In this document: positions 15,031 to 56,106 of the stretch, piece after piece | Numbering within the stretch: position 1 is the stretch's first letter | Layout: every line of letters begins with the position of its first letter | Assembly: GCF_035083965.1 (NCBI RefSeq) | Contig: NC_089724.1 | Coordinates: 8,596,501 to 8,660,500 of the forward strand | Origin: Branchiostoma lanceolatum | Taxonomy: Eukaryota; Chordata; Leptocardii; Amphioxiformes; Branchiostomatidae | Direction: 5' to 3' | DNA length: 64,000 bases | The notes under the pieces: generated by a model | What the model saw: only the letters and a program-made list of their open reading frames with translations | Told to the model about the DNA's origin: nothing | Database searches by the model: none | Program-made: the position numbers and the translations under genes

Positions 15031-23780
<8,750 letters not shown>

Positions 23781-27885: not shown

Positions 27886-30591
27886 TCATCGAAGGTCATG
27901 ATTGACCAGGTGAGCATCATACGTCAGAGGCCCCAGATGTTCTATCTTTTGACACAGTTCTTCTGGGGTCGGCCGCTTCGACGGGTCGACTATCCAGCAG
28001 GACCTGATGATGCGGTACAGCGGCTGCGAACAGTTCGTTGGCTGCTGCAGGCGGACCCCTTTCCTCAGCAGCTCCAACAGTGTGCAGACGTCGGGGTGCA
28101 TGGGGCCACCAGCATAGCGCGGCTCCTCCCCAAAGCTGGCGATCTCCCACAGCAGCACGCCGTACGACCACACGTCACTCTCACACGTGTACACCCCGTC
28201 CCGTAACGACTCCACGGCCATCCACTTCAGCGGCAACAGTTCCTCCTCCCCGCCTTGGCTGGTACGTTCGTACGCAGACGACATGTAAACGTCTCGCGAC
28301 AGCCCGAAATCTGCGATTTTGGCCACCTTTCTGTCGCTGATGACGACATTACGAGCTGCGATGTCCCGGTGAACGATCTTCAGACGTGCCAGCTCTGTCA
28401 TCCCGTTGGCCACGTTAGCTGCAAAACAAAGCCGTTCTAACAGTTTAGTGTTTCCTGTAGTCTTACACTGTTCTCTTACACTCCACAGGTACCGTCGCAG
28501 GTCCTCATTGCTCGCGTACTCTACCAGGATGTACTGTGGGTCCGATTTGGTCACAACTCCATGAAACCTCACCACATTCGGGTGTCCGTCTTTGTTCTCG
28601 TGTATCCTGGCGAGGATGTCCATTTCGCGGCGAAAGTCGCGGACAGCCGACGCTGTCATTCGGTCGGGTCGAATACTTTTAGCGGCCACCAAAACTTCGT
28701 AGCCTTCGGGCACGCGCAGTCTTCCCCGTACGACATGCCCGAACTCCCCCTCACCGACCATGTGCTCGAAACAAATGTCCTTTTTCTCCACTTCCCAAGA
28801 CGAAAGGGATCCCAAGATGGATAAAACTTCTAAGCCAACATCTGTCTGCTCTGTGTTCGTTGGACGCCGGCGACTTCGTTTTACGAGGACTCCAGTCACG
28901 ATACAAGCGATTACAAGAACAGTCGGTAAGACGGATGCAACCACCACAACAACGACTTGATTATTTACAGGGATGGATACGATCTGGCAAAACACGCCCG
29001 ACTGCCCTTCAGCACAAATACAGCTCCCATTTACTGCGTCACATGAAGCGTTGTTCTGACAGTTACAGTTCATGCTGCAGTTCAGCCCAAAAGTGCCAGG
29101 TGTGCAGATGTGTTCACACCTGACTCCCTGACGACCGGGAGGACACAGACAACCCTCCCACCTGTCACACGTCCCTCCGTACTGACAGTCACACACTTGG
29201 CTGCAAACCTTCCCGTAATAGTTGGGTGGACATTCGGTGGCGTTTAATACATAGGCGGCACTGATAAGTTTACCGTCTTCAGCCTCTACCACACAGGTAT
29301 ATTTCCCATTGGTTGAGTCAGAGATCGGTTGAAAGTTGATAGAATTGTTCTGAACCACTCTTTCGATGGTTTTTGTTTCGGTGTATTCGTTTCCTGCTTG
29401 GTACAACCACGTCATATTCGCTACGTGAATGTGTGGAGTCAGACAGGTCAGAGTCAGATTGGTACCGATGTAGTTGATGACAGAATCGCCAGGTGTCTCT
29501 ATGATGAGGACCTCGGGCCACGGAATATCACAGGCCCTCCCTCTCCAGCCCGGACGACACTCACAGGCACCGTTAAAGCCATGACAACGAGCCCCGTTCT
29601 GACAAACACAGTCCTTGTCACAGTACAACCCGTACCTGCCCTCAGGACAGCCTGTAATGTTGTACTCAGCTGTGGCCTCCCCAAATAGCGGGCCGTCGAA
29701 TGAAGTAACCTTAGCACTACAACGTATCCAATATGGCGATGTGGACCATATATCATTCATCTCTATCACAAAGACATAATGGACACTTTCGTCCATGTTG
29801 AACCCGCCATTTGCTACCCATTTGGGCAGCTTATGGTCAAGGGAAAGATCCAAAACCGTACCTTTACCTTTATCCTTTCCCTTCTTGTCGTGACATGAAA
29901 CTTCAATCCTGCCAGCTGCAAACCCTTGAAGCCAAGGAACCAGGAAAGCTTTACGTCCGAGTAGTTCGGACGAACCGACCAGAAGTCGGAGGGAGCAGTC
30001 ATCTCTCATGACCACGAAATTATCCACAACATTTGGGTCCGCTCCATGCCACTTGATAACGTCGGTGCCTGTTATGACGTGTTCGCCATTAATAGATACA
30101 GTAATGTATCCGTCACTACTAATCACAGTAGAGTCCTCAGTACTTCCTACGGCGGGTAGGACTGGTGTTTCACACCGTTTGTCGTACAGTGGTGGGTATC
30201 CCGGAACGTCCGTGACCGCAATGACGAGGTTCACATACCAAACCTTTACATGTAGCTCTTCGGCATTTGTCAGCTCCACCGTCAAGTTGTACCGCGAGTT
30301 CAACTCGTAGTCCAGCGGAGCCGCAACGGTCAACGCCAAGTTCGCATCAAGACCCTTAAACAACCCGAAATCGTCCCCTGTGGTGATGTTTACTGACAGA
30401 AACGTACCATTTCCGTCTTCTGCAAAACAATCCTTTGTATGAACAAGATCTCGCAGCAAAAGTACTGTGGTACCAACTGACACATCCTCGGGTACCTCGA
30501 TATTTTCTGAAATGTTTTGACAAGCCTGAAATCCGGACAGCAGCCCGGTCAACAGAACTACAACAGGAAATGTCACAGTCCTCACCGCCAT
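27886..30591 (-). CDS. Intronless receptor tyrosine kinase with cadherin-like, EGF, Ig, EGF, EGF ectodomain
   Basis: A single open frame of 901 residues. The frame extends to a GTG at 30624, but the first ATG is at 30591 and begins a signal peptide (MAVRTVTFPVVVLLTG). Approximate order: a cadherin-like module (25-135, with PLDYELNSRYNLTVELT), a region of unknown fold (to 314), an EGF-like domain (315-355), an Ig-like domain (360-450), two EGF-like domains (455-535), a transmembrane helix (546-570) and a tyrosine kinase (605-890). Kinase motifs are complete: GEGEFG loop, Lys in VAAKSI, HRDIAARN, DFGLSRDVY, PLKWMAVES. It should therefore be an active cell-surface receptor. The EGF modules resemble those of Tie receptors, but the order does not match Tie, RET or another vertebrate family I know. 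The tail after the kinase is very short. The missing introns suggest origin by retroposition, or intron loss. Confidence 0.9.
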   Translation of the reverse strand: MAVRTVTFPVVVLLTGLLSGFQACQNISENIEVPEDVSVGTTVLLLRDLVHTKDCFAEDGNGTFLSVNITTGDDFGLFKGLDANLALTVAAPLDYELNSRYNLTVELTNAEELHVKVWYVNLVIAVTDVPGYPPLYDKRCETPVLPAVGSTEDSTVISSDGYITVSINGEHVITGTDVIKWHGADPNVVDNFVVMRDDCSLRLLVGSSELLGRKAFLVPWLQGFAAGRIEVSCHDKKGKDKGKGTVLDLSLDHKLPKWVANGGFNMDESVHYVFVIEMNDIWSTSPYWIRCSAKVTSFDGPLFGEATAEYNITGCPEGRYGLYCDKDCVCQNGARCHGFNGACECRPGWRGRACDIPWPEVLIIETPGDSVINYIGTNLTLTCLTPHIHVANMTWLYQAGNEYTETKTIERVVQNNSINFQPISDSTNGKYTCVVEAEDGKLISAAYVLNATECPPNYYGKVCSQVCDCQYGGTCDRWEGCLCPPGRQGVRCEHICTPGTFGLNCSMNCNCQNNASCDAVNGSCICAEGQSGVFCQIVSIPVNNQVVVVVVASVLPTVLVIACIVTGVLVKRSRRRPTNTEQTDVGLEVLSILGSLSSWEVEKKDICFEHMVGEGEFGHVVRGRLRVPEGYEVLVAAKSIRPDRMTASAVRDFRREMDILARIHENKDGHPNVVRFHGVVTKSDPQYILVEYASNEDLRRYLWSVREQCKTTGNTKLLERLCFAANVANGMTELARLKIVHRDIAARNVVISDRKVAKIADFGLSRDVYMSSAYERTSQGGEEELLPLKWMAVESLRDGVYTCESDVWSYGVLLWEIASFGEEPRYAGGPMHPDVCTLLELLRKGVRLQQPTNCSQPLYRIIRSCWIVDPSKRPTPEELCQKIEHLGPLTYDAHLVNHDLR

Positions 30592-30769
30592 CTTCTCTAC
30601 GTGCAGAAATGACCTTGACTCCACGTCATGATGTTGTGTTCCTCTTTCCGAGTTCCCCTTTCCAGAGGCATTAGATTAGGTGAAGTATGCAGCACACAAT
30701 AGTCGGGGACGGAACTGGGATTGTGTTGGTAACGGGATATGTTTATATTCACGATCATAGGCATTCTCT

Positions 30770-31054: not shown

Positions 31055-32092
31055 TTATCTCCATGAAAAATGGAGATATTGTTTTTGGTGTGTCTGTGTG
31101 TGTGTGTGTTTGTGTTTCCGGACTACTGTAGTCAGCATAACTCAAGAACCCCTGGATGGATTACGATGATATTTGGTATCTGGGTGGGTGTTGTGAAGCC
31201 GAAGGTCAGGGTCGATTTTGGGCCCCCTGGTATGTGACCTTGGTACTGCAGCAGAACTTCAATTTTTGTATCTTTTGACTTGGACGTGCTGTGGTCTTGA
31301 TTTTTGGGTGGCAGATAGCCTGTGATGTAATAAAGAAGTGGTGTAGGTTTGGGCCCCCTAGCAGCTTTCTCTGGAACTGCAAGGGCGTTTTCGTGAAAAT
31401 CTTCTATGGAGAATAACTGAACAAAGGAACAACGGATTTCCATGATATTTAGTATGTACGTAGCTTAGATAGAGATATACACAATGAAGTACAAATTATG
31501 CTAATTGGGACTTAATTTGCATATCTAATGAGGAAAATCTTTATTTACAGTGTTTTCCATTATCAGACTCAAATACATGTAACATATGTAGTTTATGGAA
31601 AGTGGATCATCAACAGGTACCAATTATGCAAATAGATTCCAAATTTGCATAATTAATGCAAAACACCATGTCTCATCTAATTGGAAAATTATAGGACTGT
31701 CAATATGATACTTAGTATGCAGGTAGCTTAGACAGAGATATGCATAATGAAGTGCAAATTATGCTAATTGTTCCTTAATTTGCATAGCTAATGAGGATTA
31801 TCTATATTTGCAGTGTTTTCCATTATCAGACTCAAATACATGTAACATATGTAGTTAATGAAAAGCGGAGCATCAACAGATACCAATTATGCAAATAAAT
31901 TCCTAATTTGCATAATCAATGCAAAATACTATAATTCATCTAATTTCAAAATTATAGGACTGTCAACATTGCAACATGTAAGGTAGATAAAGGTGTTCAT
32001 GACCAAGCATATAGTATGCAAATGTGTAAGTCATTTGCATGAATAGAATTGTTCATGGAGATTTGAGGTCGTGGAACTCTTGTTGTTTTTGT
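31055..32092 (+). mobile_element. Non-autonomous element, ATCTCCATGAAAAA family, with two internal 263-bp tandem units
   Basis: The left end ATCTCCATGAAAAATGGAGA is itself a hairpin. The right end reads TTCATGGAGATTTGAGGTC...AACTCTTGTT. The copy at 16306-17180 has the same ends. From 31442 and again from 31705 the sequence repeats with a 263-bp period (ATGATA-TTAGTATG, TGTAACATATGTAGTT, TTTGCATAATTAATGCAAAA). It is non-coding and MITE-like. Confidence 0.65.
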
Positions 32093-33871: not shown

Positions 33872-36800
33872 CTAAAAGCTGTAGTCGTCGATGTCCAACA
33901 TCTTCTTGGCCTTAATGGAGTCATAGATGAACTCTTCAAACACGATGGGGATCTGTGAAAATAGGGGATGAAGAAGTAAAAAAAAAACATTTTAAAAAGC
34001 GCAGAATCGGTCCACAAACAGCAGATGTCCATCTCTTCAATGATTCAAAGGCATCAGCCGCAAAAATTCAACAACAGTTCGTTGCATCAATGTTATGCAC
34101 ACCTTAGGTAGTGGATGTTTAAAGATATTGACTAGTGGGCACTTAATGTCAAAGCATTTACCTTGTGGGTGATGGCGTCCCTGACCTTCCCAGTCTTTTT
34201 CTTATACTCAGACTTGGTGCAGACGAGAACGGAGTTGTGTACAAAAGGAACTATCCGGCCAAGAGAATATGTCAGTAATAAAAAAAAAACTGTGTCACGT
34301 CTATCGCGTTTAACTGCATGGACTTGTACGATACATGTAAGAACTTTGCTAGAAACTATCATGTCTCAGACAGGCCATCTAAAACTCACATTCATTCATT
34401 CTTTCATTGCTTATCTTGTAAAAACTGGTAGAAGAAGCCAAAGCTACTCAGGTGGAATATTATATGCTGGCTGGGTGTTTCCCCAACAGTTCCTAAAATT
34501 TGCACAATAGCCACGTTTTTTTTTGTTTAAAGCATTCCAGGTCAACGACATATAGTTCATAATGTTTCCGTCACAGCACCAGCTATATAAACAATATAGG
34601 GGTACACCCACCGGGAGTTCCTCCATGTTTGATGACGAGTTCCTTGATGGTTTCCGTTGAGTTTTTGGCTATCTTCCCGGCAACGAGTTTCTCCGACAAA
34701 GTGAAATTTTGATTCTTAAACGGCCTGCATGGGATAGATAGATAGTTCATACAAAAAATCTGTATGTACCAATAAAGTATAAGTGATATGCTTTGAATAA
34801 TGTAACTGAGAGCACATACCCTATTATGTAATAGGACATATAACGTAATGATACATAGAATTCTTTATCTATTTGATAAAAGGTGTCGGTATCTAACAAA
34901 CATATTAATCAGTAGCCTACTTATTTAATATCTGGAATTGACGCTGTCTTTAGAGTCAATGGTTCTATGTTTAGGACTTTGACTCTTCAGCCTATTTACC
35001 TGGCTATGGGCACGACTTTGGCACTTTTAGCCTCTCTGTACAGCCTCTTCACTGTTTCTGGGGACTTCGGCTTGTTCTTGGGTTTCGGCTTTAAGGGTGG
35101 CGCAGGGGCAGGCGGCGGTGGTGGTGTTTCGCTGCGCTCTGGCTCAGGCTCAGGCTCAGGAATGTATTGACCCTTCTGCTTCGCGACTTCCTACAGACGC
35201 CCAAATATATGAAATATTAGTTTTAATATAGTCTGGGAACTTAAAAATGAAATATTCAACGGCAAAAAATATATATCAGCTAAAAATATATCATAAATAT
35301 GAAAGTTAAAGTGTCTGTGTCTTGTCATATTATGTATATCATATGTACTCCGTCATGGAAATGCAGCGCACAGTTACATATAAAACATATAATCCTGTCA
35401 TGTAACGGCACGTGTCTAAATCTGATATCTACCAAAACACCCAAAACAGTCCTCTGACATGTAATGAGCATTGAACTGTTTGATTCTCTTGAATCTTGTA
35501 AAAGTTTGTAACATAAAGTTTGACACTTACCACTGTGACTTCGTGGATTTTCGTGGCTAGTTTCGGTGGAACGAAAGGCTGTCTGTTCTTGCCGAACACT
35601 TTCCCTGCTGTGGGCGTCTCATTGGCTAGAGACGAGACCATCGCTTTCATTCGCGCCCAGTGACTAGGGTCAAAGTTCTCCGGGGCCAGAAGTGTTACAC
35701 AGTAGTCAAGGTTTTCTTTCATCGACGTAGTGAAATCAGTCACCTTGAGGCAGGCTTCTGGACTCACCAGCGTCTTCACCTCGTCCTGTGTTTTTGTGAT
35801 GATGTTGATACCTTCCTTAAGATGGCGTGTTGCATGTGGTACCCACGATTTGTCTTCCCCCTTTTTGATCCAGGTGGCAGCTTTGTTGATCGAGTTCGCT
35901 GTCAGGACGCGACTGTCTTCTTGCAATGTTGTGACGATGGCGATTTCCGCCCGTTGGACCTTGTTTAACTCCTGCTGGTATGGGAGATCTGACGTGTGCG
36001 CGATGATATAGCTGCACGCTTCTGGAATGTCTATGTCATCTTTGGTAACCGAGGTCACGTCTGGGATGTCTTCGCCATCTTTGCTTATTACCAAGGACCC
36101 TTCTGGGATGTCTTCGCCATCTTTGCTTACCGAAGTCGTTTCTGAGATGTCTTTGCCATCTTTGCTTACCGAAGTCGTTACTGGGATGACTTTGCCATCT
36201 TTGCTTACCGAGGTCGCTTCTGGGATGTCTTCGCCATCTTTGCTTACCGAAGTCGTTTCTGGGATGTCCTTGCCATCTTTGCTTACCGAAGTCGTTTCTG
36301 GGATGTCTTTGCCATCTTTGCTTACCGAAGTCGCTTCTGGGATGTCTTCGCCATCTTTGCTTACCGAAGTCGTTTCTGGGATGTCCTTGCCATCTTTGCT
36401 TACCGAAGTCGTTTCTGGGATGTCTTTGCCATCTTTGCTTACAGTGGTCGCTTCTGGGATGTCTGTTCCATCTTTGCTTACCGAGGTCGCTTCTGGGATG
36501 TCTTTGCCATTTTTGCTTACCGAGGTCGCTTCTGGGATGTCTCTGCCATCTTTGCCTACCGAGGTCACTTCTTGGATGTCTTTGCCAACTTTGCTTACCG
36601 AAGACCCTTCTGGGATGCCTGTTTCATCTTTGCTTACCAAGGTCTCTTCTTGGATGTCTTTGCCACCTTTGCTTACCGAGGGATCTTTGTGCGTGCTGGC
36701 CGTTATCATCGACAATGTGTGTCCTTTTTTCAGACTAGACCTTTGTCCATAGCTGTTCTTGCTTCGCTTGATGTCTCGGTCCCTTGCTTCTTCCCTGATC

Positions 36801-38751
36801 AGGTCTCCCACCGTATCGTGGTAGAACGGTATTGTGGCGTGTAGCTCTCGTTCAACGTGATCAGTCCCCACGTATGTGACGATGGCTTGCACGACGTCCT
36901 TTCCTGACAGACTTGTTTCCCAGTCACCCGGCAGATTCAGGACACACTGGATGTGCTTCTTCATGTCCTCGGAAATGTCGTGCACGAAGTACTTAGATTC
37001 TGTTCCCGCCCCCCGCAGTTGAGATGTTTCAGCTGTCATCAGAGGGCTGACCATGGATTTGAACTCAAACGTGAGTCCGTTGAGCGCATGTAGGGTTACA
37101 CGGACGTTGGAAACAAGGCATGTCTCCCGAAGGAAGATGGGAATCATCATGTCGGCCTCGAAATTGCTGTCGTCGCTGAGCCAGAAAAACGCGTCACTCC
37201 CGAGTTTCTGGCTGACTTCGTACAGAAGATGTGGCCTGTATTGCCCTATTGTGAATGTTGAGATAGGTAGGCATGCCTCTCCACAAACGGACGCTTTCTT
37301 CTCGTTGAATGCTTGTATCAATCCGTTGGTATTTGTAATGCCCTGGTTTGCTTGACCATCCGTGAAGAGAATGATGCCGTTGTGGAAGGACCCCCTGAGG
37401 TAAAATTGCAAATGAATATCGGAACAATCTTTTATGATCTTCAATCACTAAATGCTACCACTGTCCTGTTGCAATTTGTACTCTGAACAGGTATGTGAAT
37501 GCCCAAGTTGTGCACTCGCGTTCATAACCCTTTCCACACAAGAAGGTATGCACATTTTGTTATTGCCTATTTAGCATACGTTATACATCACAAGGGAAAT
37601 AGATTTTATAACATCTTGAGCGTACCCTGACTGAAACATGTCTAATGCTGCGAGGAGGCCATCACTGAGGTTCGTTTGTCCACGGGTGTCCAGGGTCTTG
37701 ATCGCTTCCAAAGCTTGAACCTATAGAATGTCATAGAACCAAAATGATCGCTGATGTCAGAACAAAACAAACTGAAAACTATATCATGATTATACAAAAA
37801 TGAAAGCTCTTAGATTTACCCTCCCGTCCTTGTCTAACTGAGTCATCGGTAGTTTAACTTGAACGTCAGTAGCAAATGTGACGATTGCCATCTGGTCATC
37901 CTCCTTTAGGTTTTGAACCATCAGCTCAGCAAAAAGCTTCATTCTTTGGATCAAACTCATGTCATCATCACCAACACTGTGAAAACAAATTGTGCACAGT
38001 CTTGTATTGAAAATCACATCAGCATATGAATTGCGAAATATGTAATACTAATAGTGTTCGGAAATAAAAAAAACGAAGTTCTTCATTCACAACCAGAAAA
38101 TTAAAACAACCGACGTTTTGGTGACGGCCTGTTACCTTTCTCATGACAATAGTGACTGGAGCTAGGAGTCACTGCAGCTAGGTTAAGAAACAATAACATC
38201 GCAGTGCTGTCATATATGAATGTTATAATACTTCAAGAACAATTTATGTTTTCTTGATCTGTACTACCAAGCGTTATCTAGAATACTATCTGGAACCACT
38301 GAAAAAACAACAGAGGGACAATATCTTACTTATCGTCCATACTGAAACTCTCGTCAATGACGGCAACGAAACGTAAAGGTGTTCTGCTCATGGATACCGC
38401 ATCGAATATTTTGTCTCTTGAAATCAACTCCCAAACGACATTCATTCGTGGCGGTTGCTGCAAGGCGAAAGGAAAGAAGACCTTGTCTTTAATAAAAACA
38501 AACTACTTATTTATCGAATGAGCTACATATGTATCAAGAAAATAAACAGTAATTTACAAATAATTTAAGTGTCAAGAACATAGCTGTTGAGGCATGTAAT
38601 TTGACAATTTAATAATCCGATAGCCCACGTAATCTGTTATAACAATTTTAGGCCGAAAAACAAAGGAAATTTGTACCAGTTTTTTGTCCACAGTGTAAAA
38701 GTAGACCAAGTCCAGCTGGCTCCGATCCTCCTGATGCCCAGCTTCTGCCAT
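33872..38751 (-). CDS. vWA-BRCT protein 1 (9 exons), with an in-frame 13-residue repeat array
   Basis: Exons on the minus strand: 38751-38677, 38457-38330, 37976-37820, 37720-37626, 37394-35531, 35190-35000, 34724-34612, 34250-34162, 33952-33872 (930 residues, phases consistent). The N-terminal half is a vWA domain with a complete metal site: DESFS, Thr in GQTNLSDG, Asp in LFTDGQ. A beta-rich region follows, then a repeat array, a conserved block (WARMKAMVSSLANETPTAGK), a Pro-rich exon (PEPEPEPERSE, PPPPPAPAPP) and a C-terminal BRCT domain (KLVAGKI, IKHGGTP, NSVLVCTKSEYKKK, VFEEFIYDSI) of the PARP1 sort. vWA domains bind ligands through a metal ion and BRCT domains often bind phosphopeptides. 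No signal peptide is visible, so the protein is probably intracellular. The tandem paralogue lies 2 kb away on the same strand. Confidence 0.85.
36030..36695 (-). repeat. Coding minisatellite: about 17 units of 39 bp (13 residues)
   Basis: Within exon 5 of vWA-BRCT 1, units follow the pattern SVSKDGKDIPETT. Units near the middle are almost identical and form a 117-bp higher-order unit (KDIPETT, KDIPETT, EDIPEAT) occurring at least twice in a row. Edge units are diverged (SVSKVGKDIQEVT, SVTKDDIDIPEAC). The unit is a multiple of 3, so the frame is kept and the opposite strand is also open (36027-36752), which is not a gene. The paralogue has a non-repetitive acidic linker at this place. Confidence 0.95.
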
Positions 38752-38865
38752 GGTTGTGCTCCGTTAGTGTTAAGTTTTAGTCAGCTACTTGAGACGCAAT
38801 TGCAGAACATAAGAAAGAAATGAATTGTACATTAAGCCTCTCTCAGTGCTGAACTTCGTTTGTCT

Positions 38866-38893
38866 GTCTGTTTGTTTGTTTGTTTGTTTGTTT
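38866..38893 (+). repeat. (GTTT)n microsatellite
   Basis: Short tetranucleotide run about 115 bp upstream of the vWA-BRCT 1 start codon. Confidence 0.8.
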
Positions 38894-38945
38894 AACTTAC
38901 TTTAAATGTATGTGAAATGTACACATCAAGATTCCGAGTAACATC

Positions 38946-39064
38946 TACCCTGGGTACCATTCTTCGTAGTAGCCGCTGGCTCAACTTGATGATCTTTTCC
39001 AGTGGTTGGCAAGCGAAAATATTGAGCCAGCGGTTACTACGGAGGATGATACCTAGGCTAGGTA
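38946..39064 (+). mobile_element. Short palindromic MITE upstream of vWA-BRCT 1
   Basis: The two halves are inverted copies: left TACCCTGGGTACCATTCTTC and GTAGCCGCTGGCTCAA, right TTGAGCCAGCGGTTAC and GATACCTAGGCTAGGTA. Length is 119 bp with no coding capacity. The rest of 39065-40828 (the intergenic space between the two vWA-BRCT genes) shows no gene. Confidence 0.65.
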
Positions 39065-40828
39065 AAACCATTTTAATGCATGCATTTCTGCGTCACGTCC
39101 GAATCGACGATCTGCGCCATACGTGTTCTCTCAACATCCTATGTTTTTTTTTAGCATTAACCTGTTGCCCCCTCTTCGATAAGCACCTGTCAAGAGTTAA
39201 AGTTTGTTCTTTGACCTCCGGATAAATCATTCATCAACCTGAGTTAATTAATCTTCACTATATGCACTTCGCGTTAACGTTACTACTGGTTGAAAAGGGC
39301 ATTGAGTGGAATGAAGGTGGTTCGGGATTCAAACTCTAGAAAAAGTCTATGCGCCATGAGAATATATAATAGGATCAATGCAAACTTCGAACTCTGGTTA
39401 TATGTTTATGTTCACACAACACTTCGTAACTTTGCGCCTTCGCCATTAGATAGAAATCTAAACTTCTCACTGGCATCTACATTTCCTGCCGTCATTTTTT
39501 AGGGTCACTACTACAGTCTGAAAGCAATCTACAATTTACTATGACATATGAAATAGTTTTTCACCTTAAATCCCTTTTCGCTGCTTCAAAAATGAAAGTG
39601 GTTGGCCTCCCGGATATTCAACACGGCGACAAAGTGTAGAATCAACTTTCAACCACACATTATTCAATAGTTACTATAAGTATGCGAACATAAAAGCATT
39701 GTTTACCTGTATTATTCTGATGACAGAGTCCACTGCTTAACTCAGTCTTGACTTTCTGTAATAAGAATACTTCAGCCCAAGACTAGAGGAACAGGCCAAA
39801 TCTATGGAAGGGGGGGGGGGGTAGCGTTCCTACTCAATATATATGTGAAACATATGGCATACCTCTTCTCCTATAATTCATTATCAAACAGTTTGTAATT
39901 TACCCTTACTTGTACTTACTTGCCCTTACTCTATCGAAAGCTTTTTATTTGCAAATTTCTAAAGACAAGTTTTGATAACACATTTTGAATTGGTTTCTCC
40001 CTTCTTCTGACCACGTAGTCACATTTTGTCACTATGACTACAAATGGGAGGTACAAACACGTAGCCTGTGGTTCAGTTGGCCCTGCCGTATGAAGTGTTT
40101 GTTTAAGTTCTTTTGTCCCTTAGATTGACTTTAGACTCAGTAGGCTTCTGGAGGGACGAAAACAACTCAGTTCCAAGAAAGTTTGGTTTCGCTCCTAGAC
40201 AGACGTGTTTTCGTCGTTCCATCGTCGCTAGGAAACTAAAACTTGATAACATCTTCTGCATGTAAAAACTTTTGATAACCCACCATCAGTTATCTCAAGC
40301 TAAGACGACATTTCAAAGAAAAAACTGTTATTCTACTGGTTTTAAGAGTTTGCATTGTGTAATTGTAAGATAGTCTTGGTACAGGAGTTCACTTCCCGTG
40401 TTTGCGTCGAGTAATATAGATTATAGATGCGACCGATGATATAACCTATATTCTTATCCCGTCTGTATGTGAAGTTACTAACTTCTTGACTACCGTAAGA
40501 AGGAAAAAAACGTACAAAATTAAGGCTGTTGTAAAACTTGTATTTACTGCACTTCAGACAAATTATTATTGTTAATTACAACATTATATACATAATCACG
40601 TTGATTGCTACAATTCGTCTCCAATACGTTCTGAGCTGATGCTGCAATCACATGTCATTATTGCAACAAACCTCCATCTTTTTGAAATACATTCAACCCT
40701 GAGTGATTCTGCATTCGATGCTATGTTCTAATTTGAAGATAGAATTATACGTGTATACAGTTAACACCTCTCATAGAGGCAATCTAAGACCGTTGCTTGT
40801 GTGTTCATCTTAGCAAGGCAGTGCATGA

Positions 40829-43800
40829 TCACCAGAATCTGTAATCTTCAATGTCTAACATCTTTTTCGCCTTGATGGAGTCGTAGATGAACTCTTCGAA
40901 AACAATCGGCGTCTGAAAGACATGTAACAACACATTGATCACAAAGTAGCTACATGGTGTATCAATTTCCAAAATTTGATATAATCAAGGTGGAAAATCT
41001 TCAACAATCTTCAACTATCAAATTTAGCTATATATTGTTAAGTACACTGTATAAGATTAATGTAGGAATTGTGGTCTCATGTTGTGAAGTACTGATAGAT
41101 TGTAATGATTATCATATTGTTCTGTTAGCCAAATTAATAGTTCTGTGTTACTCAATGACGTTATGCTATATATGTCTTCATGAAGTAGATACATATAACG
41201 CAGCGGGTGCATTAGGTTTACAGTTCAGTCAATATAAGCAAAGCATCATACAACCTTGTTTGCTTTGGCGTCTCTGACTTTGGCCGTCTTCTTCTCAAAC
41301 TCTTCCTTCGTGCATACAAGGATGGAGTTTTGGATGAAGGGAACTGAAAATAGGTGAAAACAAAACAACAATCACTGTTTAATACTTGGTACCTAGCTCA
41401 TATTGAATGCAATGGGTAGCAAAATCTAATTAGCTAGCTTACAAATAGAAATCAACACCCATAACTTTGTCAGAAGAACTAATTCAATGAAAATCAAATC
41501 AATATGATGATGTCTTACCCGGGGTTCCCCCATGCTTTATGATGAGGTCCTTGACAGGCTCTAATGATTTCTTTCCAGTTCGTCCGGCAACCAGTCTTTC
41601 CGACAGCGTGAAATATGTATTCTTGAATGTTCTGTCGTTAAAAACAATTGTCTATAAGTTAGCATAAAGTGCATCATTCAGACAGTGTGAAGTATGTGTT
41701 ATTGAATGTCCTGTCGGTGAAAAAACAATTACTTATAAATAAGCATAAAACGCAATTGATGATTTGACACCTGAGCCAGTTTAATGTATAATAGAGTCGT
41801 CATGCATGATGTCGTCAACTTCATTCAAGGGGGGTTAGGTGAGATATGAACTTTTCAGGAACTTCTATGAAATTTTACGATGATACTTTACAATTAAATA
41901 ATGTCTATACCTTGTGGTGACTGCCTTCGTTCCCCCCTTTGCCTCCTTGAAAAGTTTCTTGACGGTCTCCGGTGACTTTGGCTTGTTGGCTGTCTTTGGC
42001 CTCACTGGTTGTGCTGTCTTCTTTGTGACTGGAGCGACCTACATTTGCCATTGAGGAATTATTTGTATTTATGCCAACATACAGTGGAGTACAGAATAGC
42101 TTCTAAGAAAAAAATGCTTATTTGACCAGTGTGATAATAATCAATCAGTATCAATCTACCAAGCTTTCTCAACAGTAATAAAAAAAGAGTACTCACCGCA
42201 TGCGATTTGGGCCTCACCGGTTCCTCTTTTTTCTTCTTTGCTGCTTGCTTGGCCTTGGTATCTTGAACGATCTAAGTTTATACCAATTCAAAAAAGCATT
42301 TAGCCGCATTGATGCTGGGGTCAATAACAATCGTTTACGGATGTTTTACCTTTCAGACAAAGGCCATCAAAAAGCCATTTATCTAAACATGTGTGTCTTT
42401 GTGTAGTTCATCTTCAAAGTTATTCCATTGAAAAGTTAAAGAAGCATAGCAGCTGTACTGATTAAAGAATAAAATTGCAAACATGAACATAAAATAGTGA
42501 CTGTAGAAATACGCACCTTCTTGTATTTCTGCATCTCAGTTTTCATCGCTGGCGGGGCGAATGGTCTGTCTTCTCCGTGGAAGATCTTACCGCTGGTAGG
42601 GCTCTCATTTGCGATGGACGAGGCCATGGCCTTCATCTTCTGCCACATGACTGGGTTTGGATTATCCACTAGCTCGAAACACACATCCAGGTGGCCAATC
42701 ATGGAATCTGCATACTGTGTCAGCACTACCACCGCCTCTTCAGAAAGAATGGTGTTGACGTGCGTCTTTGTCTGGTTGATGCTGTTTTTGGTCTCGTTGA
42801 TGGTTGTTTTGGATTCTTCGAACTCGTTGGCTTCGATGAAGTCGGCTGATATGTTGATGGCGCCCACCGTCATGGTTCTGCACTCCTCCTGTGCAATCTT
42901 CGCGATGGTCCGCTCGGCTCTGGTCACCTCGTCCAACTCGGAGGCAACGCTCGGAGACATGTAGGCGATCGTCTGGAGTTCCATCTCAGTGGGAATGTAC
43001 TCATCTGGTGCCTGAAGACTACTGGTGACAGCCAGCTCGTCTTCGTTACACGTTGTGTTAGCTTTCATCGACATGTTCTCCAGATCCCGTTCTGCTTGGG
43101 CACTGGACCTCAGTTTTGGATTTTCGGCGTCCGACATTTCCCTTCCTACCCCTTCCGTCTGTTCACTACCCTTTCTTCCCTCTTCACCATTGACGTCTTT
43201 GACCTCTTGTGTAGATCCAGATGTTTTGATGCTCTCTTCCTCTTCTGTAATCGCCTGCTGTGATGCATCTCCTTTCTGTGATTGGCCATTTTCTATCGTG
43301 GTTGTTGTTTTCTTGGTTTGGTCTTCAATTCTCTTATCTTCATCACTGTTCTTTCCATCTCTTGCCTCATCATCTGCAATTCCTTCGTTTCTCTTGTCAA
43401 GGCTCGTCGCTTCCCCTGTCACCTGGGACGTGTTACTACCATCAACGGCACGACCTTCTTCTGAGCTGGATTCCTTTTTCACAATGACCTGGTCGTTCTT
43501 TTCCCTTTTGTCGCCAGCAGTCGGTTTCTCCCTTGTTCCTTCAGACCTCTTTTCCTTTCGGCATTTGTCCTTCTTTAGGTCTGCGAGTGTGATGAGTTTG
43601 AGTGGAATGACAGCATTGATTTCTCTCTCAATGTTGTTAAAGTCGCGGTAAGTGATGTGTACTTCCATGATGCCCTCGTCTCCCAATGCGTCTTCGTAGT
43701 CGTCCGGTATGTTCAGGTAACACGGGATGTGTTTGAACATGTCGGCAGAGATGTCGTGAAAGTAGTACGCGATGGACACGTAGTCTGAAGTGCCGTCAGG

Positions 43801-45577
43801 AGGATCCACCATCCTGCTACTCTTCATCTGATCTATGTCAAAGGTCACGCCGTTGATGGCCCGAAGATTGACGAGGATGTCCGTAACGAGCGAAGTTTCC
43901 CGAAGGTAGACCGGGATCATCATGTCGGCCTCGAAGTTGTCAAAGTCGTTGATCCAGAAGAACGAGTCGCTGCCGAGCCGTTGGCTGATTTCGTAGAGGA
44001 GGTCGGGACGGTAGCCGCCAATGGTAAAAGTGGAGATGGGAAGACTCACACTCGATGAGAAAGACGCTTCTTTTGCAGCGTTGAAAGCAGCAACGATTCC
44101 ATCCGCGTCACAGATACCTTCATTTGCTACCCCGTCCGTAAATACGATGATTCCATTGCGGAAATGTGACCTTGAAAAAAGAATGCCTTATCATAAACAT
44201 GAACAGCCTCTAAAAGACTCTAAGTTAGACTATATCTTACGTTATTTGAGTTTTCATATCCATATTTTGGCATTTTACGGCTGTTTTGATAAAGGTGGTA
44301 CTAAATTTAAAAATATTTTACTCACTCTTGGTCTGAATCCTTGAAGAGCTCCACACCACTAATGATGCCGTCACTGAGGTTAGTTCGCGACCAAGCACGG
44401 ATGTTCTCGATTCTTTTGGCAGCATTGGCCTGTATAAGATAATCATTAACATTAATCTGAGGTTGGAAATGAAGTCAATATTGATATGAAATAGTGATTT
44501 CCTGGCTTATAAAGGCGTTGGGTTTGTTTTGTTTTAGTTTACAATGTATTGATCAGTCTTAAGAGACATATAGTGTCCAAACACGCCCTGTTTACAAATT
44601 GCATTGAAATGACATAATATACTTACTGAGTTTCTGTCAGATGTTTTTTCTGAAGTTGTTATTCAACGTGTGCACAAACATGTATCATATTCTATATAAT
44701 ATGCTCCTTATATCGATCGAATATTCACAAATATTATACCTTCCCATCCTTGTCCATTTTGGTGATTGGCAGAATGATGCGGATTTCGCTATCGAAACCC
44801 ACAATGCCAAGCAAGTCATCTTCTTGGAAACTCTTCACCAGAAGTTCTGCAAAAACCTTCATCTTGTCGATTAGTGACTCATCGTTAATCCTGCAAATAT
44901 AGATATCATTTAGCATAAATTATCATAAAAAAATTCTTAAAGCGCATTATATTTCTGAAAGCTAGTTTTCACGAGACGTTCAAGGAGAGAAACATGGCAG
45001 CTTACGTGCTTTCCATACTGCCGCTCTCATCAATGACCGCAACGAAACGGAAAGGTAGCCTCTTTTTGGTTTCTTTGTCCGTCTCTAACTGCTGTGCTTT
45101 CAGCTCCAGTAAAGTCTTCACCTGAAGTGGAGACTATGACAAAGAATTATAATTATATGCATGTAAAAGATATGTGCTATACAGCAAATAAACGACACAA
45201 TGCTGTCACGCTTAGCTTCCCACAACTACTAAACCCGTATACTAACCACAGCTTACAGCCCATAGCTACTACTGACCGATATACCATCCAGCTTACCCCG
45301 TATTGTCCTTTCTGTGTCACTAAAAGAATGACTAAATAATGAATGAAGACCTTTATTGTACATTCGTTCCCCGAGGGGCTAGATATCGCTCGTCTAACGT
45401 AAACCTTAACTAAGATGTTAAATCTAACTAAAAGAATACAATGATTGCTACTTGGCAAATTGCACAAACAAGAATACAAGAGAATGTGTTCTTTACCTTG
45501 TCTTTCGCCAGCACACAGTAGTAAGACAGTTGCAGTGGCTCTGTCGTGTCGTCTCTCTCATCAGTGCAGTCTGCCAT
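40829..45577 (-). CDS. vWA-BRCT protein 2 (10 exons), tandem paralogue
   Basis: Exons on the minus strand: 45577-45497, 45133-45006, 44890-44740, 44429-44326, 44170-42517, 42271-42197, 42038-41911, 41631-41519, 41343-41255, 40912-40829 (868 residues). Phases match the neighbour exon for exon, except that one Pro-rich exon of the neighbour corresponds to two Lys/Pro-rich exons here. The vWA metal site is intact (DESGS, Thr in SRTNLSDG, Asp in VFTDGV). The linker (about residues 330-490) is rich in Glu, Lys, Ser and Thr and is probably disordered. The block WQKMKAMASSIANESPTSGK is shared with the paralogue. The C-terminal BRCT reads LVAGRTGKKS, IKHGGTPG, NSILVCTKEEFEKK, VFEEFIYDSIKAKKML. I know no named vertebrate protein with vWA then BRCT in this order; PARP4 has both but in the reverse order and with a PARP domain. 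Confidence 0.85.
45338..45420 (-). repeat. Probable LINE 3' end in intron 1 of vWA-BRCT 2
   Basis: On the minus strand the sequence CCCCTCGGGGAACGAATG and ACAATAAAGGTCTTCATTC runs into an ATTCATT tail. The same GAATGAAGACCTT end occurs at about 60336. This resembles the 3' terminus of L2/CR1-like elements. Confidence 0.35.
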
Positions 45578-49379: not shown

Positions 49380-49444
49380 AGCCCATCTGTAGTTGTTGAT
49401 CACGAGGGCATACCGCGCCGGTGTTGTCATCTCTGCAAGGCATC

Positions 49445-52400
49445 ATGGGATCGGGCGCGTCAAAACAGATGGCGCCCGTCGCCACGAGGACGATCGAGAC
49501 ACAGACTGACGTCAGCAACCTGGAAGACGTCACGTCACTAGCTCCGTCACAAGTAGAACCAGGGACGATGTACTTTCAATCTCGAAGCACTTCCGGTTCC
49601 GGTACAAGAGCACACCTTCCGACCGCTACCGTTATACCGGTAACAGCCAACGGGCAGCGGAAACGCGCTGGGCATGACGGGAGCCATGAGGGAGATCTGC
49701 CGGCGCCCAAACCTCCATCAACGTCCAAGGACCAGCTCATGGCCAATCAGAACTATCAAGAGATGGATGAACGCGCTAGAAAGGTAAATGGGCCACCACC
49801 TTTATCTACGAATCTGTACATATCAAATTACAAATTTGCTTGTATTTGAGATCCCATGTTAATGTAGATATAACTTTCATCCAGACATTATGTCAATCCC
49901 TGTTCTAGCCACTTTCATGTTTCCTATGTCTTAACTACTTGTATCCGTCCCAAGTCCACGTCGCTTGAGCATAAATTTGTAGAATAAAACTTTCTATTAT
50001 AATGCAGCAAGAGTATATACGTTTTGGATTCAGTCAATCATAAGCAAAATTTCCTTTCTTACCCATTCCAGGCAGGAGCGTCTGACGCTAATTCCTTCGG
50101 TGGGCTTAACCAGTATCTAATGGAAGGAAGGAAAGAAACCGTTGCTGTGGAAAGCAACCATGGAGGTGAGGGTGAGACAGCCGTGCAAGATAGTGGCCAA
50201 CATGGCACTGTCGGACTCGGGACCTCTCAAGCTCAGCCGCAAGCGAACGGCGAGACAGGAGAAGTTGAAAAGCCGAGAATCACTGCCGAAACAAACACCA
50301 ACACAATCCATCAGGACGCAGGAACGACTGGAGGAACACTTCAAGAAGATGTGGAGAGGCAAATAGAGGAGGCAAAAGCCACAGAGGCGAAGATTGGCAT
50401 GCAGCGAGAAATGTCCAAAAAGAGGCAACAGTTATCCCTGCAGGAAAAGTTGGAGGCACGAAAAAGGAAGAGACAAGAAGACGTCCAGAGACAAGAGGAG
50501 AAAAGAGCGAGGGCCGAGCTAGAGGAAAAACAGGGAGCACTGGTGAGTCCAAAGTCAATAGCGTATTATACTATTTTCATTTCATCAGAGACATTTTCTT
50601 TATAGTACAACAAAACGTAAGAAGCCGCTGTCCACGGGGGCTCAAAAATCTAATCATTTCTAGGTCTCATCAAGACGTACCAATGTACTAAATATCAAGA
50701 CAATTCATCATGTAGGCATTCTCGAGTTATGTTGTTCAACCACACACATACTTCAAAACGCTACCAAAAACATAACCTTCTTGGCGAAGGTAATAAATTT
50801 AGCTTTTGTTACAGGCTTTTATAATTTATACCGTTGACACATGTAGCTGGAATCACAACTACTAGGTTTAGCCACTTGGTTCTCACTGGTTTTGTATTAC
50901 ATAGATAATCAGATATTCATTTCTGTGCAGCTATACATATTTTCATCCTCTCATGGTATAATAACACATGTAAATCAAATATTGCAGATTGACAGTTCTA
51001 ATATCTTAATCAAAACACATTTTGTTTTTATTAGATGCCAGAGCAGGCCCTCGGCCAGCAATCCCAGGTGACCGACGTGAAGGAAATCCCAAAGGGTACT
51101 ACCGAGGGTAAAACCGTGAGGTTTGCCGACGACACCGCTGGAAATTTAGACGAGAAGCAAGAAGACATCATTATGCCTTCAGAAGAGGTAAGATGGTTGG
51201 AATGTGCAAGAAAGAGTCTACTCAAGACACAATCACGTGTTCTTGCGTTAGAAATTAACAACTTCATATTGCATAGAACAAAGTTTCAAGAAGGATTAAA
51301 ACGTAGTGTAATAGAGACATAAGATAGCTATATGAATCTATTTAAACGTATTGTGATGGCCATGGGCAAAATATGTTATACAATTTCCCAATGGGACAGT
51401 GAAAACACTATATAAACTGTAAGCATTGGGGATGACAATAACGTTTTAACGTTAAAACAAGACTAAAATTTACTTTTATGACGAAAACACAAACTTACCT
51501 GAACAATTACTGTTTTCAGCCTGTTCTGAAAGGAATAGATAGACACGAAGAGATCAAGAAGGCAGAGGAAGCTGCTCCGTTGATGCCGAAGATGCCCGTG
51601 ACGAAGAAGGCGTCCGTGTACAAGAAAGAGGACATCTCACTCTTCAAGGACTTGGAGGACCACGCCGTGTCACTTGCTCTTGTGGTAAGAAGCTTTCCAA
51701 TTGATATTGGTGTTTAAATGGTGAGAAGTATCTATATGACAAGGTACAACAAGAAAGATATAACGTTACATGGCCTACGAGGTATCTTTACTTTCTCAAA
51801 ATATTTACTGTAAAAATGATATATTTGGATAGGACAAACTTAAATGCAGAAGGCGATGCTTTCAACTGACAGGTCCTAAGGCCTAGATTGGGAAGATGTA
51901 AGATGAACGTAATTAAGGGCACACGCTAAGGAAACCGCCATCTAGCATTACATACCAGACCCTAATCTAGAGTACAGGGCAGGGGGATAAGAAGAAGGCC
52001 TAGAACAGCTGGCAAAGAGACACGAAAGAAGAGATGAGGAGTGTAAACAACAACTGGTTCGACCTATATAAGGGCTCTGTCACACTTATGTGTACGTATA
52101 TTCACTACAAGTGCGTATGAGAAGCGCATTAGCATTTTCTTGGTTTAAGTAAGGTTTGCGGGGAAGAAGCTGTTTTCTACTTTGACCCACCGTTGTGCAA
52201 CCTGGTTATCGAACCAAATAAATTACTTCTTCGGCTGCAAACTTAACCTGAACCAAAAACATGTTAATACGCAGCGCATGTAGACTTGTATAGGTACGCA
52301 CAAGTGTGAAGGGGGCTTAAGAAAGAAGGCCAAGAGACAGGAACAATAGAGGGATATCATCTGTGGTCTATGCTCTGCTAGGGGCAAAGGGCCTATATAA

Positions 52401-55400
52401 GTAATTATGAGTAAATGTAACGCCTTTCTTCTTGCTTCCTTAATGACAGAAACCCAAGACGACGGACACGTTCGCCACCCTGATGGAGGTCCTCCTCATC
52501 CATGACCTCTCTGACCTGGAGAAGGTGCGCATGATCTTCCACTGGGTTACTGCGCAGAATCTGAACGAGATGACGTTCGGTGGTGACGTAGAGGACGACT
52601 CCCCGGCTGGGTACCTGATGGCCATCAAGGAGGAGAGACAGACGTACGCAACGCTGTTTGAACGTCTCTGCAGGTGAGTAGAACTAAGATGATGGCGTCT
52701 TCCGCCGTCAAGTAATAAACAACAAGAAATGATAGGTGCATGTAGCTCATGTACTTAGGAATTAATCTAACTTTGTCCGTTAGGCCCCCATTCCATTAGA
52801 CTGCGCTCTCACTGTGACCTAGCTCGCTGCGACCTAAGCTGGATTTGTTTAACCCTTGATTTCATGACTGGAAAATTATGCAATATGTAAACGCATACGA
52901 AAAGACTACAAAACACACAAAGCGTAAAAAGATTCCTTTTTTATCTATGAAATTCGTTGAGCTCTCTGGTCAATTTTAGGTCGCGGAGAGAGCGCGGCGT
53001 GGTCACCGCCCTATCGGAAGGGGGGTGGGGGGGGGGTGGTAGCAGCTTTAGTCCATATAATTTCAGGAGCAGGTTCTTTATTCTGAACGGATTCTTGAAT
53101 GACATGAATAGAACATTTTAGGTTACCTATCTGATTAGAACAGACAAACATGACGCTAAAAGATAAATGTAGTTGCTAACGATGAATTAGCCGGGGGGTA
53201 GTCTATGTTGAAATCAAATGTATGAAATGGAGGGCGTATCTGATTTAGATGTTTGAAGTTGTTTCACATCTTCGTTTTCTTTTCACTTATTTCATCTTAA
53301 GTGCGGCTGGACTCTTCTCTAAGACAGTCCACGGCTACATGAAGGGAGTCCGGTACAACCCCGACCACCACTTCGAGGGCCCAGGGGACCGACACCGCGG
53401 GACGTGGAACGCCGTACTGGTGGACGGGGAGTGGCGCCTCATCGACTGTCACTGGGGATCCAGACACGTCACTGGTAGGTGGTCTTTGAAATGCACATAG
53501 AATGTAACGTCTATTGGCCCGATTTACACATGCATTTTGGAGTCGACTTAGAGTCGCTGAGTCGACTTAAATTTACTAAAAGAACGCGTATCTGCATCAG
53601 GCCAGAATTCATCCAGGTAACGACAGTACGCCAACCTGATAAAAAGAATGCATACCTACATAATCTTAGTGTGTATACTTCGAATGTAGCCTCCACCAGG
53701 CCTTCCTACGGGGGTATGGATCGTAGAAATCGGGGGATAATTGGCCAGTAGGGTCAGTCCACAGGGAGGGTCAATATTTCGCCCGCGCTTGCATTAAAAC
53801 TTCCCTTCAGGTTGCCAAACTTCCCTGGCAAATATATTCTCCCTAAAGCCTATGGCTAACTGGCGTAGTTAGTCTGGTAGAGAGTACCAAGGATGTTGTA
53901 TTAGCTATAGAGATCTCTCAAACACATTCTTTTTCTTAAAGTTGTGGATATACGGACCAGTCGTATGGATGTTAAATTGACATCTTGTGGAAAAACAATC
54001 GACTAGACTTATGTAGTAGTTTTATAATTGTTAGCCTTAAACCTTGCTCAGTGTATAATAAAAATGCGATGGCGCCGTGTTTTAAGGAAATGGTAAAGGG
54101 GGCATGCCATTGTAGTAATCAACAATAATAATACATTTCTTTTGTAATAATCAATATATGTAATTTGCTTTACAGGCGACGACCAAATCGACATCGAACA
54201 ACTGACCACCGTGTACAAATACGAAGAGTTCTACTTCCTTACCGACCCTGAACAACTGATCGACACTCACTTCCCAGAACAGCCCGAGTGGCAGCTGCTC
54301 GACTCACCCATCTCCCTCGCCGACTTCGAGGCAGGCGTCAAATGCTGGCCTCTATTCTACAAGCTGGGCGCGTCCCTCGCCAGCCACAAATCCGGAATGG
54401 TTCACACAGAAAACGGCACGGCCGAAATACGCGTCGGTTTCCCGAAAGACGACTTCACCAAAGTTCGCTTCTCGTATCGACTCAAAACGAAGGATAGAGA
54501 CAATACAGTCGACGATGTCGACCTGAACCGTTACGTTCTGCAAGAGACCAAGGAAGACTGCGAGAGTTTCACAGTTGAGATACCAATAAAAGGGCGATAT
54601 CTCATTGAGATATACGGAGGGGAGGATACGGGAGAGACGGATCAAACAGAGACCTCGAACGTCTGTCTCTACATGATAGTTTGCGAGTCCGCGAAGCAAA
54701 ACTGTACCCCGCTCCCCGAGTGTCCCATAGCGTGGGGGCCTGGTAGGGACGTGGTAAAAGCAGGGATGACGTCACTGAGTCACAAGGAGGCAGTGATTAA
54801 AACAGAGACGGGTCACGTCGAGATCAAGTTCAGAAGGCCAAGCAACCTTGACTTTAGGCAAAACTTGTACAGGGTCAAGTGCGAAGAGACCGAGCTGGCG
54901 GGGTTCGCGGTTAACGTGTTGAAGACTGACGAGGTGACGTTCCATGTCAGGACACCAAAGAAAGGGACGTACGGACTCATCATCTACAGCAAAAACGGAG
55001 GAGAAGAAAATAAATTCTCGCAGCTGTGCTACTATGTCATAGTTTGTGAGACGGATCCGGAAGGTATCGTTCCTTTCCCACAAGCTGCAAATAACCAGTT
55101 CGGTCCGTTAGAACCTCAGTTTTCGAAATTCGGACTCGTTCAGACAGAAAATGCCGACTATCACCTGAAAACGGAAAACGGCGAGGTTAATATGGGTCTT
55201 AAGCTTACCAGCGAAACGCTATTGGCTCTCAAACATATCGTATCGTCTAGAGCACAAGAAGGGAACGAAGGGTTGGATCAGTACGTGTTGAGACAGACGG
55301 TGGACAACAACACATCTATATTGTTCTGCCCTCCCCATGCCGGGGAGTACAGTCTCGCGTTGTATGCAGGAACAGGTACAGAGTTGAAGAACGTGGTGAA

Positions 55401-56106
55401 TTACCTCATCACGTGTGACGAGCCAAAAGATAATGTCCAGCCATTCCCTGTCATTGGAGACGCTAGCTGGGGACCGGTCCTTCCTCCGTTCTCTGACATT
55501 GGACTCTCACTAGTAGCACCTAAGACTGCATACATCACAAGCGACAATGGGGAGGTTACCATCAACCTTGGTTTGTCGAAACCTGTCGGGTTGCGAGTCC
55601 GTATGACCCTCCACAAAGACGGTGCAAGTGAGACCATGGACCAGTACAGTTTCTACGAACTAGACAACGAAAAAGGAACAGTCAAAGCCTGTCTACCGAA
55701 GGAAGGCAGCTACAGAGTTGAAATGTTTGGAAACGACCTATCGTCATCGTCGGAGGGCGTTCCCTTGGTTGCCAATTTATTCGTAGAATGTACGAAAGCA
55801 CTAAAGGACGCGACGCCGTTTCCAAAAATCGTAGGCGGCAAATGGGGACCGGGATGTCGTCTGCATGAGCCAACATCCGGGGTCTTGTCACGTGATAAGG
55901 TTGTCAACTTCAGGGTAGATGTCCCGGATGCGTTCAAGGCTGTAGTGAAAGGAGACTCTGTGCAGCTGATGAACAAGGTGGAAGGAAACACGTGGGAAGG
56001 GAAGTACGCCATCGGGAAGGCGGAGAAATCGGTGGCCGTTCTGGCAAATTTCGAGGAAAATTCGCAGAAATTCTCGGGCCTGCTGGAGTTCGCCGTCGCA
56101 GACTGA
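49445..56106 (+). CDS. KY/hillarin-like protein 1 (7 coding exons); transglutaminase-like domain without the canonical Cys and His
   Basis: Exons: 49445-49783 (preceded by leader from 49380), 50072-50542, 51035-51187, 51520-51684, 52450-52673, 53302-53474, 54176-56106 (1151 residues, phases consistent). The start MGSGASKQ is a strong N-myristoylation motif. TIETQTD near residue 20 fits a dynein light chain (LC8) site. A Glu/Arg/Lys coiled coil fills exon 2, and KTVRF in exon 3 fits a PP1-docking motif. Residues about 377-510 form the transglutaminase-like domain of KY (kyphoscoliosis peptidase) and hillarin (FHWVTAQNL, LCSAAGLF, GYMKGVRY, WNAVLVDGEWRLIDCHWG). Where active relatives have a Cys before the LF motif this has RQTYATLF, and HxWN is replaced by GTWN; only the Asp remains. 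The last exon holds four Ig-like KY repeats of about 125 residues (PFPxxxxxxWGP starts) and a partial fifth. It is probably a membrane-tethered cytoskeletal scaffold. Confidence 0.85.
52781..53040 (+). mobile_element. GGCCCCCATTCC fold-back family, copy in KY-like 1 intron
   Basis: The left end TTAGGCCCCCATTCCATTAG is followed by TGCGCTCTCACTGTGACC. The interior AACCCTTGATTTCATGA and TATGAAATTCGTTGA is shared with 12946, 27344 and 60970. The right end CACCGCCCTATCGGAAGGGG is an inverted match, followed by a poly-G tract. Confidence 0.5.
53686..53884 (+). mobile_element. Small non-autonomous element, family 1, copy 2 in KY-like 1 intron
   Basis: Starts GTAGCCTCCACCAGGCC and ends GTAGTTAGTCTGGTAGAGAG. 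It is 199 bp and homologous to copies at 8239 and 25050. Imperfect inverted termini (ACTCTCTACCAGAC against GTAGCCTCCACCAGGC) are visible. Confidence 0.65.

Follow-up and report, generated by a model that had tools for sequence, protein, structure and literature searches.

Two tandem genes on the minus strand of the amphioxus Branchiostoma lanceolatum, here called A and B, appear to encode proteins that begin with a vWA domain and end with a BRCT domain. We place the probability that this architecture is real at about 0.92. The two genes represent a new combination of known domains and not a new kind of system. In the literature searched for the combination, which consisted mostly of titles and the openings of abstracts with few subscription papers, no protein with vWA first and BRCT last was named, and the term BRCT is absent from the main texts of the lancelet and domain-shuffling papers that were searched for it.

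Results

Gene structures

Both genes were modelled by splicing within a 64,000-nucleotide stretch of genomic DNA (the window):

Gene A: 45577-40829, minus strand, 10 exons, 864 aa, open frame through every exon, GT-AG introns
Exons of gene A: 45577-45497, 45121-45006, 44890-44740, 44429-44326, 44170-42517, 42271-42197, 42038-41911, 41631-41519, 41343-41255, 40912-40829, minus strand
Gene B: 38751-33872, minus strand, 9 exons, 930 aa, spliced from start to stop
Exons of gene B: 38751-38677, 38457-38330, 37976-37820, 37720-37626, 37394-35531, 35190-35000, 34724-34612, 34250-34162, 33952-33872, minus strand

Every one of the 17 introns in the splice models, 9 of them in A and 8 in B, is bounded by GT-AG, and an in-frame stop lies upstream of each start codon. 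AATAAA occurs 3' of A (39949) and 3' of B (33085 and 33069); one more lies within A, at 45357 in intron 1. A and B are paralogues that align end to end with 38% identity and have common intron phases at matching introns (0,2,0,2,0 ... 2,1,0); A contains one extra small exon (42271-42197, 25 codons) without a counterpart in B. An initial sequence-only reading of this DNA had set outer limits that are exact, as the models place the start of A at 45577 and the stop of B at 33872. It had also assigned the BRCT to the three terminal exons at phases equal in both genes, and the models match this. The neighbours of the pair are a homeobox that on inspection resembles Dbx, a KY-like gene and an alpha-amylase exon slightly under the Pfam cut-off.

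The vWA half

The N-terminal half of each protein consists of a vWA domain and the segment that follows it:

A vWA domain: 43933..45055, minus strand, aa ~50-230, exons 2-5, Pfam VWA_2 E 2.9e-12
B vWA domain: 37157..38379, minus strand, aa ~52-231, Pfam VWA_2 E 4.9e-16
A post-vWA segment: 43585..43932, minus strand, aa 231-346, bacterial-type profile alignment (hhalign) extends through it
B post-vWA segment: 36791..37156, minus strand, aa 232-353, bacterial-type profile alignment (hhalign) extends through it

Only about 50 residues stand ahead of the vWA domain in either protein, and the VWA_2 scores of 47.6 bits (A) and 59.7 bits (B) are above the Pfam cut-off of 27. The MIDAS motif comprises DxSxS, T and D, and its residues are complete in A (D58/S60/S62, T132, D163) and in B (D60/S62/S64, T136, D164), which agrees with the earlier proposal of an N-terminal vWA with a complete metal site in both genes. 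B also matches Ku_N: searched as a whole, the protein scores 15.7 bits (E 0.013), short of the 20.6-bit cut-off, and its N-terminal half gives E 0.00095. The match overlaps the vWA and would be expected from a fold related to vWA.

By profile comparison, this half resembles widespread bacterial vWA proteins and is no lineage novelty in itself. A tblastn search of plasmids with the first 350 residues of B matched 9 of 72,556 records, and the best, from Deinococcus deserti, reached a query coverage of 83%. Genome contigs were then scanned with an alignment that combined A and B with two bacterial vWA domains; 148 loci were confirmed, and the 80 listed include many bacterial phyla and one Methanolobus. 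For the profile, 86 vWA ORFs were taken from L001-L086; the 53 with 255-310 residues after DGxAN were kept and 33 omitted. Hhalign aligned A and B with these 53 bacterial-type proteins over 273 columns with an E of 1.9e-29 for that single profile pair, a value that mainly restates the vWA similarity because the set was preselected by vWA similarity to A and B, both of which were in the query alignment. The post-vWA segment alone aligned with the bacterial-type profile at E 0.059, which is not above chance, 2 of 50 shuffles being as good; in A, this segment is perhaps a beta-sandwich of the sort that accompanies cytosolic vWA domains. Bacterial cytosolic vWA proteins such as Deinococcus deserti WP_012695227.1 (L001 2381-3637) have, like A and B, a vWA followed by a further segment. 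However, the three bacterial vWA proteins read whole (418-437 aa) end shortly after the post-vWA segment, whereas A and B continue.

Linker, central helical block and basic tail

Beyond this point A and B contain three further regions before the BRCT domain:

A linker: 43003..43584, minus strand, aa 347-540, acidic and of low complexity by composition, very low pLDDT in a poor whole-exon model
B linker: 36032..36790, minus strand, aa 354-606, largely a 13-aa repeat (KDGxDIPEATSVS)
A central helical block: 42517..43002, minus strand, aa 541-702, W-MKAM-SS-ANE-PT-GK, helices predicted by AlphaFold2
B central helical block: 35531..36031, minus strand, aa 607-773, 37.5% identical to the A block
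A basic tail: 41911..42271, minus strand, aa 703-769, two exons, pI 10.7, KPKSPETVK motif
B tail: 35000..35190, minus strand, aa 774-836, proline-rich and basic, pI 9.7, KPKSPETVK motif

Most of the B linker is made up of 17 copies of a 39-nt unit (36017-36681), as is expected of a tether under little constraint. The sequence-only reading had recognised no family in the central block and had called for a structure prediction. A Pfam search of the block indeed gave no family, PDB and viral fold searches yielded no clear match, and AlphaFold2, run with two sequences, predicts long helices for the A block at a mean pLDDT of 77. The block might correspond to the helical end of the bacterial-type vWA proteins, pushed away from the vWA by the linker. 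Against the profile of the whole bacterial-type vWA family, however, it gave no match (E 0.25), nor did it against a three-sequence profile (E 0.55). When it was compared with the helical end alone of the bacterial-type vWA proteins, its score was reached by none of 50 column shuffles but by 7 of 241 unrelated real segments; with the single A and B blocks, the scores were exceeded by 30 and 66 of the 241 unrelated segments, respectively. PARP4 and VWA5A are described as having a helical domain besides the vWA region (PMC10450202).

The BRCT domain

The last three exons of each gene encode the putative BRCT domain:

A BRCT domain: 40829..41631, minus strand, last three exons, aa ~770-864, Pfam BRCT_2 E 5.2e-9
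B BRCT domain: 33872..34724, minus strand, last three exons, aa 837-930, Pfam BRCT_2 E 3e-9

BRCT_2 scores of 36.7 bits (A) and 37.5 bits (B) are above the cut-off of 27.3, and the older Pfam BRCT model falls below its cut-off of 21.3 in both (17.8 and 19.9). The assignment as a probable BRCT is based on BRCT_2, the PDB searches and the agreement of both paralogues. In a PDB sequence search with the BRCT, the best four of 21 sequences are PARP1, with modest scores (E 0.0007-0.02); the fifth is a non-BRCT (0.032), and PARP4 (0.29-0.75) and Rad4 (0.9-1.1) come after it. For the BRCT of B, the best PDB match is the PARP1 BRCT at E 0.0026.

A GG motif is common to A, B and the PARP1 BRCT (PDB 2cok, 2le0, 7scy), and when A and B are compared with PARP1, EEF stands against EDF near the end of the domain, where many BRCTs have a Trp. 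The remainder of PARP1 is absent from A and B. The phosphate pocket usual in BRCTs carries a Ser/Thr, which in A and B is apparently the Ala of LVAG; since the pocket residue appears to be Ala, phosphopeptide binding is doubtful. The PARP1 BRCT is reported to contact DNA via lysines and T420-G421-T422, and the PARP4 BRCT to bind nucleic acid (PMC12212138). In the alignment, V-P-F occupies the position of T420-G421-T422 in A and B. As a result, PARP1-style DNA binding is not carried over, and any nucleic-acid binding by this domain would have to occur through other residues. The earlier label of 'PARP1-type' thus holds in so far as PARP1 is the best match among solved BRCTs, but does not extend to the DNA-contact motif.

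Over 79 codons, the BRCTs of A and B are 72% identical, and the share of codons that differ is 13.9% at position 1, 11.4% at position 2 and 58.2% at position 3, a pattern of protein-level constraint. Since identity is 52.5% in the vWA domain, 43.5% in the post-vWA segment and 37.5% in the central block, constraint among these regions is strongest in the BRCT. This most constrained part is the part whose gene membership is most open to doubt.

Discussion

Proposed function of A and B

A and B may act as intracellular, non-enzymatic adaptors in which the vWA domain binds a protein partner while the basic tail and BRCT engage nucleic acid or a repair complex. We hold this reading tentatively, at slightly less than an even chance. 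First, the vWA, with its intact metal site, would provide a metal-dependent grip on a protein partner. The long flexible linker would serve as an arm and, together with the helical block, would separate the vWA from the basic tail and BRCT. Finally, the tail and BRCT would anchor the complex to nucleic acid or to a partner in DNA repair or chromatin; the nucleic-acid binding reported for the related BRCTs of PARP4 and PARP1 (PMC12212138) speaks for such a role. This mechanism is inferred from the anatomy of the proteins, namely the metal site, the linker and the charge of the tail and BRCT (pI 9.5-10.7). The charge contrast lies between the tail (pI 10.7 in A, 9.7 in B) and BRCT (pI ~9.5) on one side and the vWA half (4.4 in A, 4.7 in B) on the other. 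An intracellular location is suggested by the sequence, as no signal sequence is apparent by eye, and docking by the BRCT in the nucleus or on nucleic acid would be compatible with the proposed adaptor.

Alternatively, A and B could be protein scaffolds that make no contact with nucleic acid, with the BRCT, for example by pairing with another BRCT, and the vWA both binding protein. This is the main rival, and we regard it as possible though on balance doubtful. That the T-G-T motif of PARP1 is not conserved in A and B is in keeping with such a scaffold; however, the strongly basic tail and BRCT would fit nucleic acid better.

Relationship to PARP4 and other vWA proteins

The described protein that combines vWA and BRCT is PARP4, the vault PARP, and the sequence-only reading correctly described it as having the opposite order together with a PARP catalytic part: its order is given as BRCT, catalytic part, VIT and vWA (PMC2964712). 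PARP4 is further described as carrying WGR, HD and a C-terminal MVPID, as combining the region that holds its vWA with a disordered linker and a ~150-aa helical domain, and as having an ITIH-like central part (PMC10450202). Like A and B, PARP4 thus unites BRCT and vWA in one animal protein, with a disordered linker and a helical domain. In contrast to PARP4, where the BRCT precedes the vWA, A and B have the vWA first, the BRCT last and no match to VIT, WGR or the catalytic part. Branchiostoma is reported to have PARP4-like proteins with VIT, vWA and 14-3-3, an architecture that differs from that of A and B (PMC4245714).

Could A and B be degenerate derivatives of PARP4 that have lost the catalytic part and been rearranged? 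The shared BRCT, vWA, linker and helical domain (PMC10450202) speak for this, as does the N-terminal half, whose best PDB matches are ITIH vWA domains (E 6e-4), the central part of PARP4 being described as ITIH-like (PMC10450202). However, given that the domain order is reversed, that Pfam found no PARP, WGR or VIT match, with E limits of 1 for whole A and B and of 10 for their N-terminal halves, that the BRCT matches PARP1 (E 0.0007) ahead of PARP4 (E 0.29), and that the vWA half gives a 273-column alignment in a comparison made with bacterial-type vWA proteins only, we consider this origin improbable. The sequence-only reading had likewise seen no PARP catalytic region, and three regex patterns for PARP and WGR gave only two isolated matches in the six frames of the window (+2959 and -60883), neither of them near the genes.

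The inter-alpha-trypsin inhibitor heavy chains provide the best PDB match of the N-terminal half, through the vWA of ITIH4 (E 6e-4). ITIH proteins, however, are secreted and carry VIT, a domain for which A and B gave no match.

One gene or two

We infer from the splice models that the vWA and BRCT domains probably belong to one transcript. An improbable alternative is a gene-calling artefact, in which a vWA gene adjoins a separate BRCT gene and the pair was duplicated in tandem; the layout would be identical if a two-gene unit had been duplicated. The introns that separate exon 5 from the BRCT exons, three in A and two in B, contain 10, 3, 7, 10 and 6 ATGs. ATTAAA hexamers are present in A at 41785 and 41383 and in B at 35227 and 34929, and exon 5 can be read some codons beyond its donor until a stop is reached. 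As a signal, however, ATTAAA is weak and common by chance; AATAAA is found after each gene. Moreover, neither gene has a methionine in its tail exons or first two BRCT exons, the sole one being in the last exon, so that an independent BRCT gene would require an additional start exon in one of the introns, which are 158-340 bases long. The 21 residues past the exon-5 donor are dissimilar in A and B, whereas coding sequence up to the donor and from the next shared exon aligns, and the splice phases are consistent in A as well as in B. Gene-prediction errors have been identified as the source of differences between the architectures predicted for lancelet species (PMC6071037), which favours the artefact; many new domain pairs have also been counted in lancelets (PMC4284660).

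Implications

The joining of vWA and BRCT in A and B would document a new architecture in a lineage where differences in predicted architecture were traced to errors (PMC6071037). More speculatively, and in our view rather unlikely, A and B might represent a hitherto undescribed animal family in which an ancient cytosolic vWA of bacterial-like type was joined to a PARP1-type BRCT. Such a family would be a non-catalytic counterpart of the vault PARP, and without ADP-ribosylation it would bring the clients of its vWA, possibly vaults via the helical block, to chromatin or to DNA breaks. The literature examined shows vWA and BRCT united in PARP4, a protein in which it is not settled what either part does. 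Another joining of the two domains, non-catalytic and constrained in two paralogues, would offer a natural comparison for the joint role of vWA and BRCT.

Repeats in and around the vWA-BRCT genes

In exon 5 of gene B, the tandem paralogue of the vWA-BRCT gene A, a 39-base unit is repeated 17 times (36017-36681) inside the open frame, and these units encode a 13-residue repeat; for gene A no array of this kind was reported. Intron 7 of gene A contains a short duplication (41640-41754) that copies the start of exon 8 together with the stretch preceding it, as a 34-nt pair with a spacing of 81 and 79% identity.

By eye, the peptides at 16304-16609 and 31135-31464, both on the minus strand, are alike, and this likeness suggests that they are part of a dispersed repeat. 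At 31442-31967, a 263-base unit occurs as a tandem pair (88% identity).

Other genes in the window

3895-4996, plus strand: homeobox in two exons, with Homeodomain matches
27889-30675, minus strand: receptor tyrosine kinase-like single open frame of 929 codons
49400-49846 and 59737-60246, plus strand: two open frames, containing MGSGASKQ... and MGCGTSTA..., respectively, each then a TQTD motif (by eye)
54151-56103, plus strand: KY-like gene with a large exon, in which four immunoglobulin-like stretches are KY-like (Ig-like_KY, E 9.7e-104)

The homeobox appears Dbx-like by eye. In the receptor tyrosine kinase-like frame, the kinase and immunoglobulin matches exceeded the cut-off, and those to cadherin and EGF fell short of it; this is apparently a receptor tyrosine kinase without introns. 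Visual inspection suggests that a second gene resembling the KY-like gene may start near 59.7 kb, and the two frames at 49400-49846 and 59737-60246 look like the paired N-myristoylated starts of both KY-like genes.
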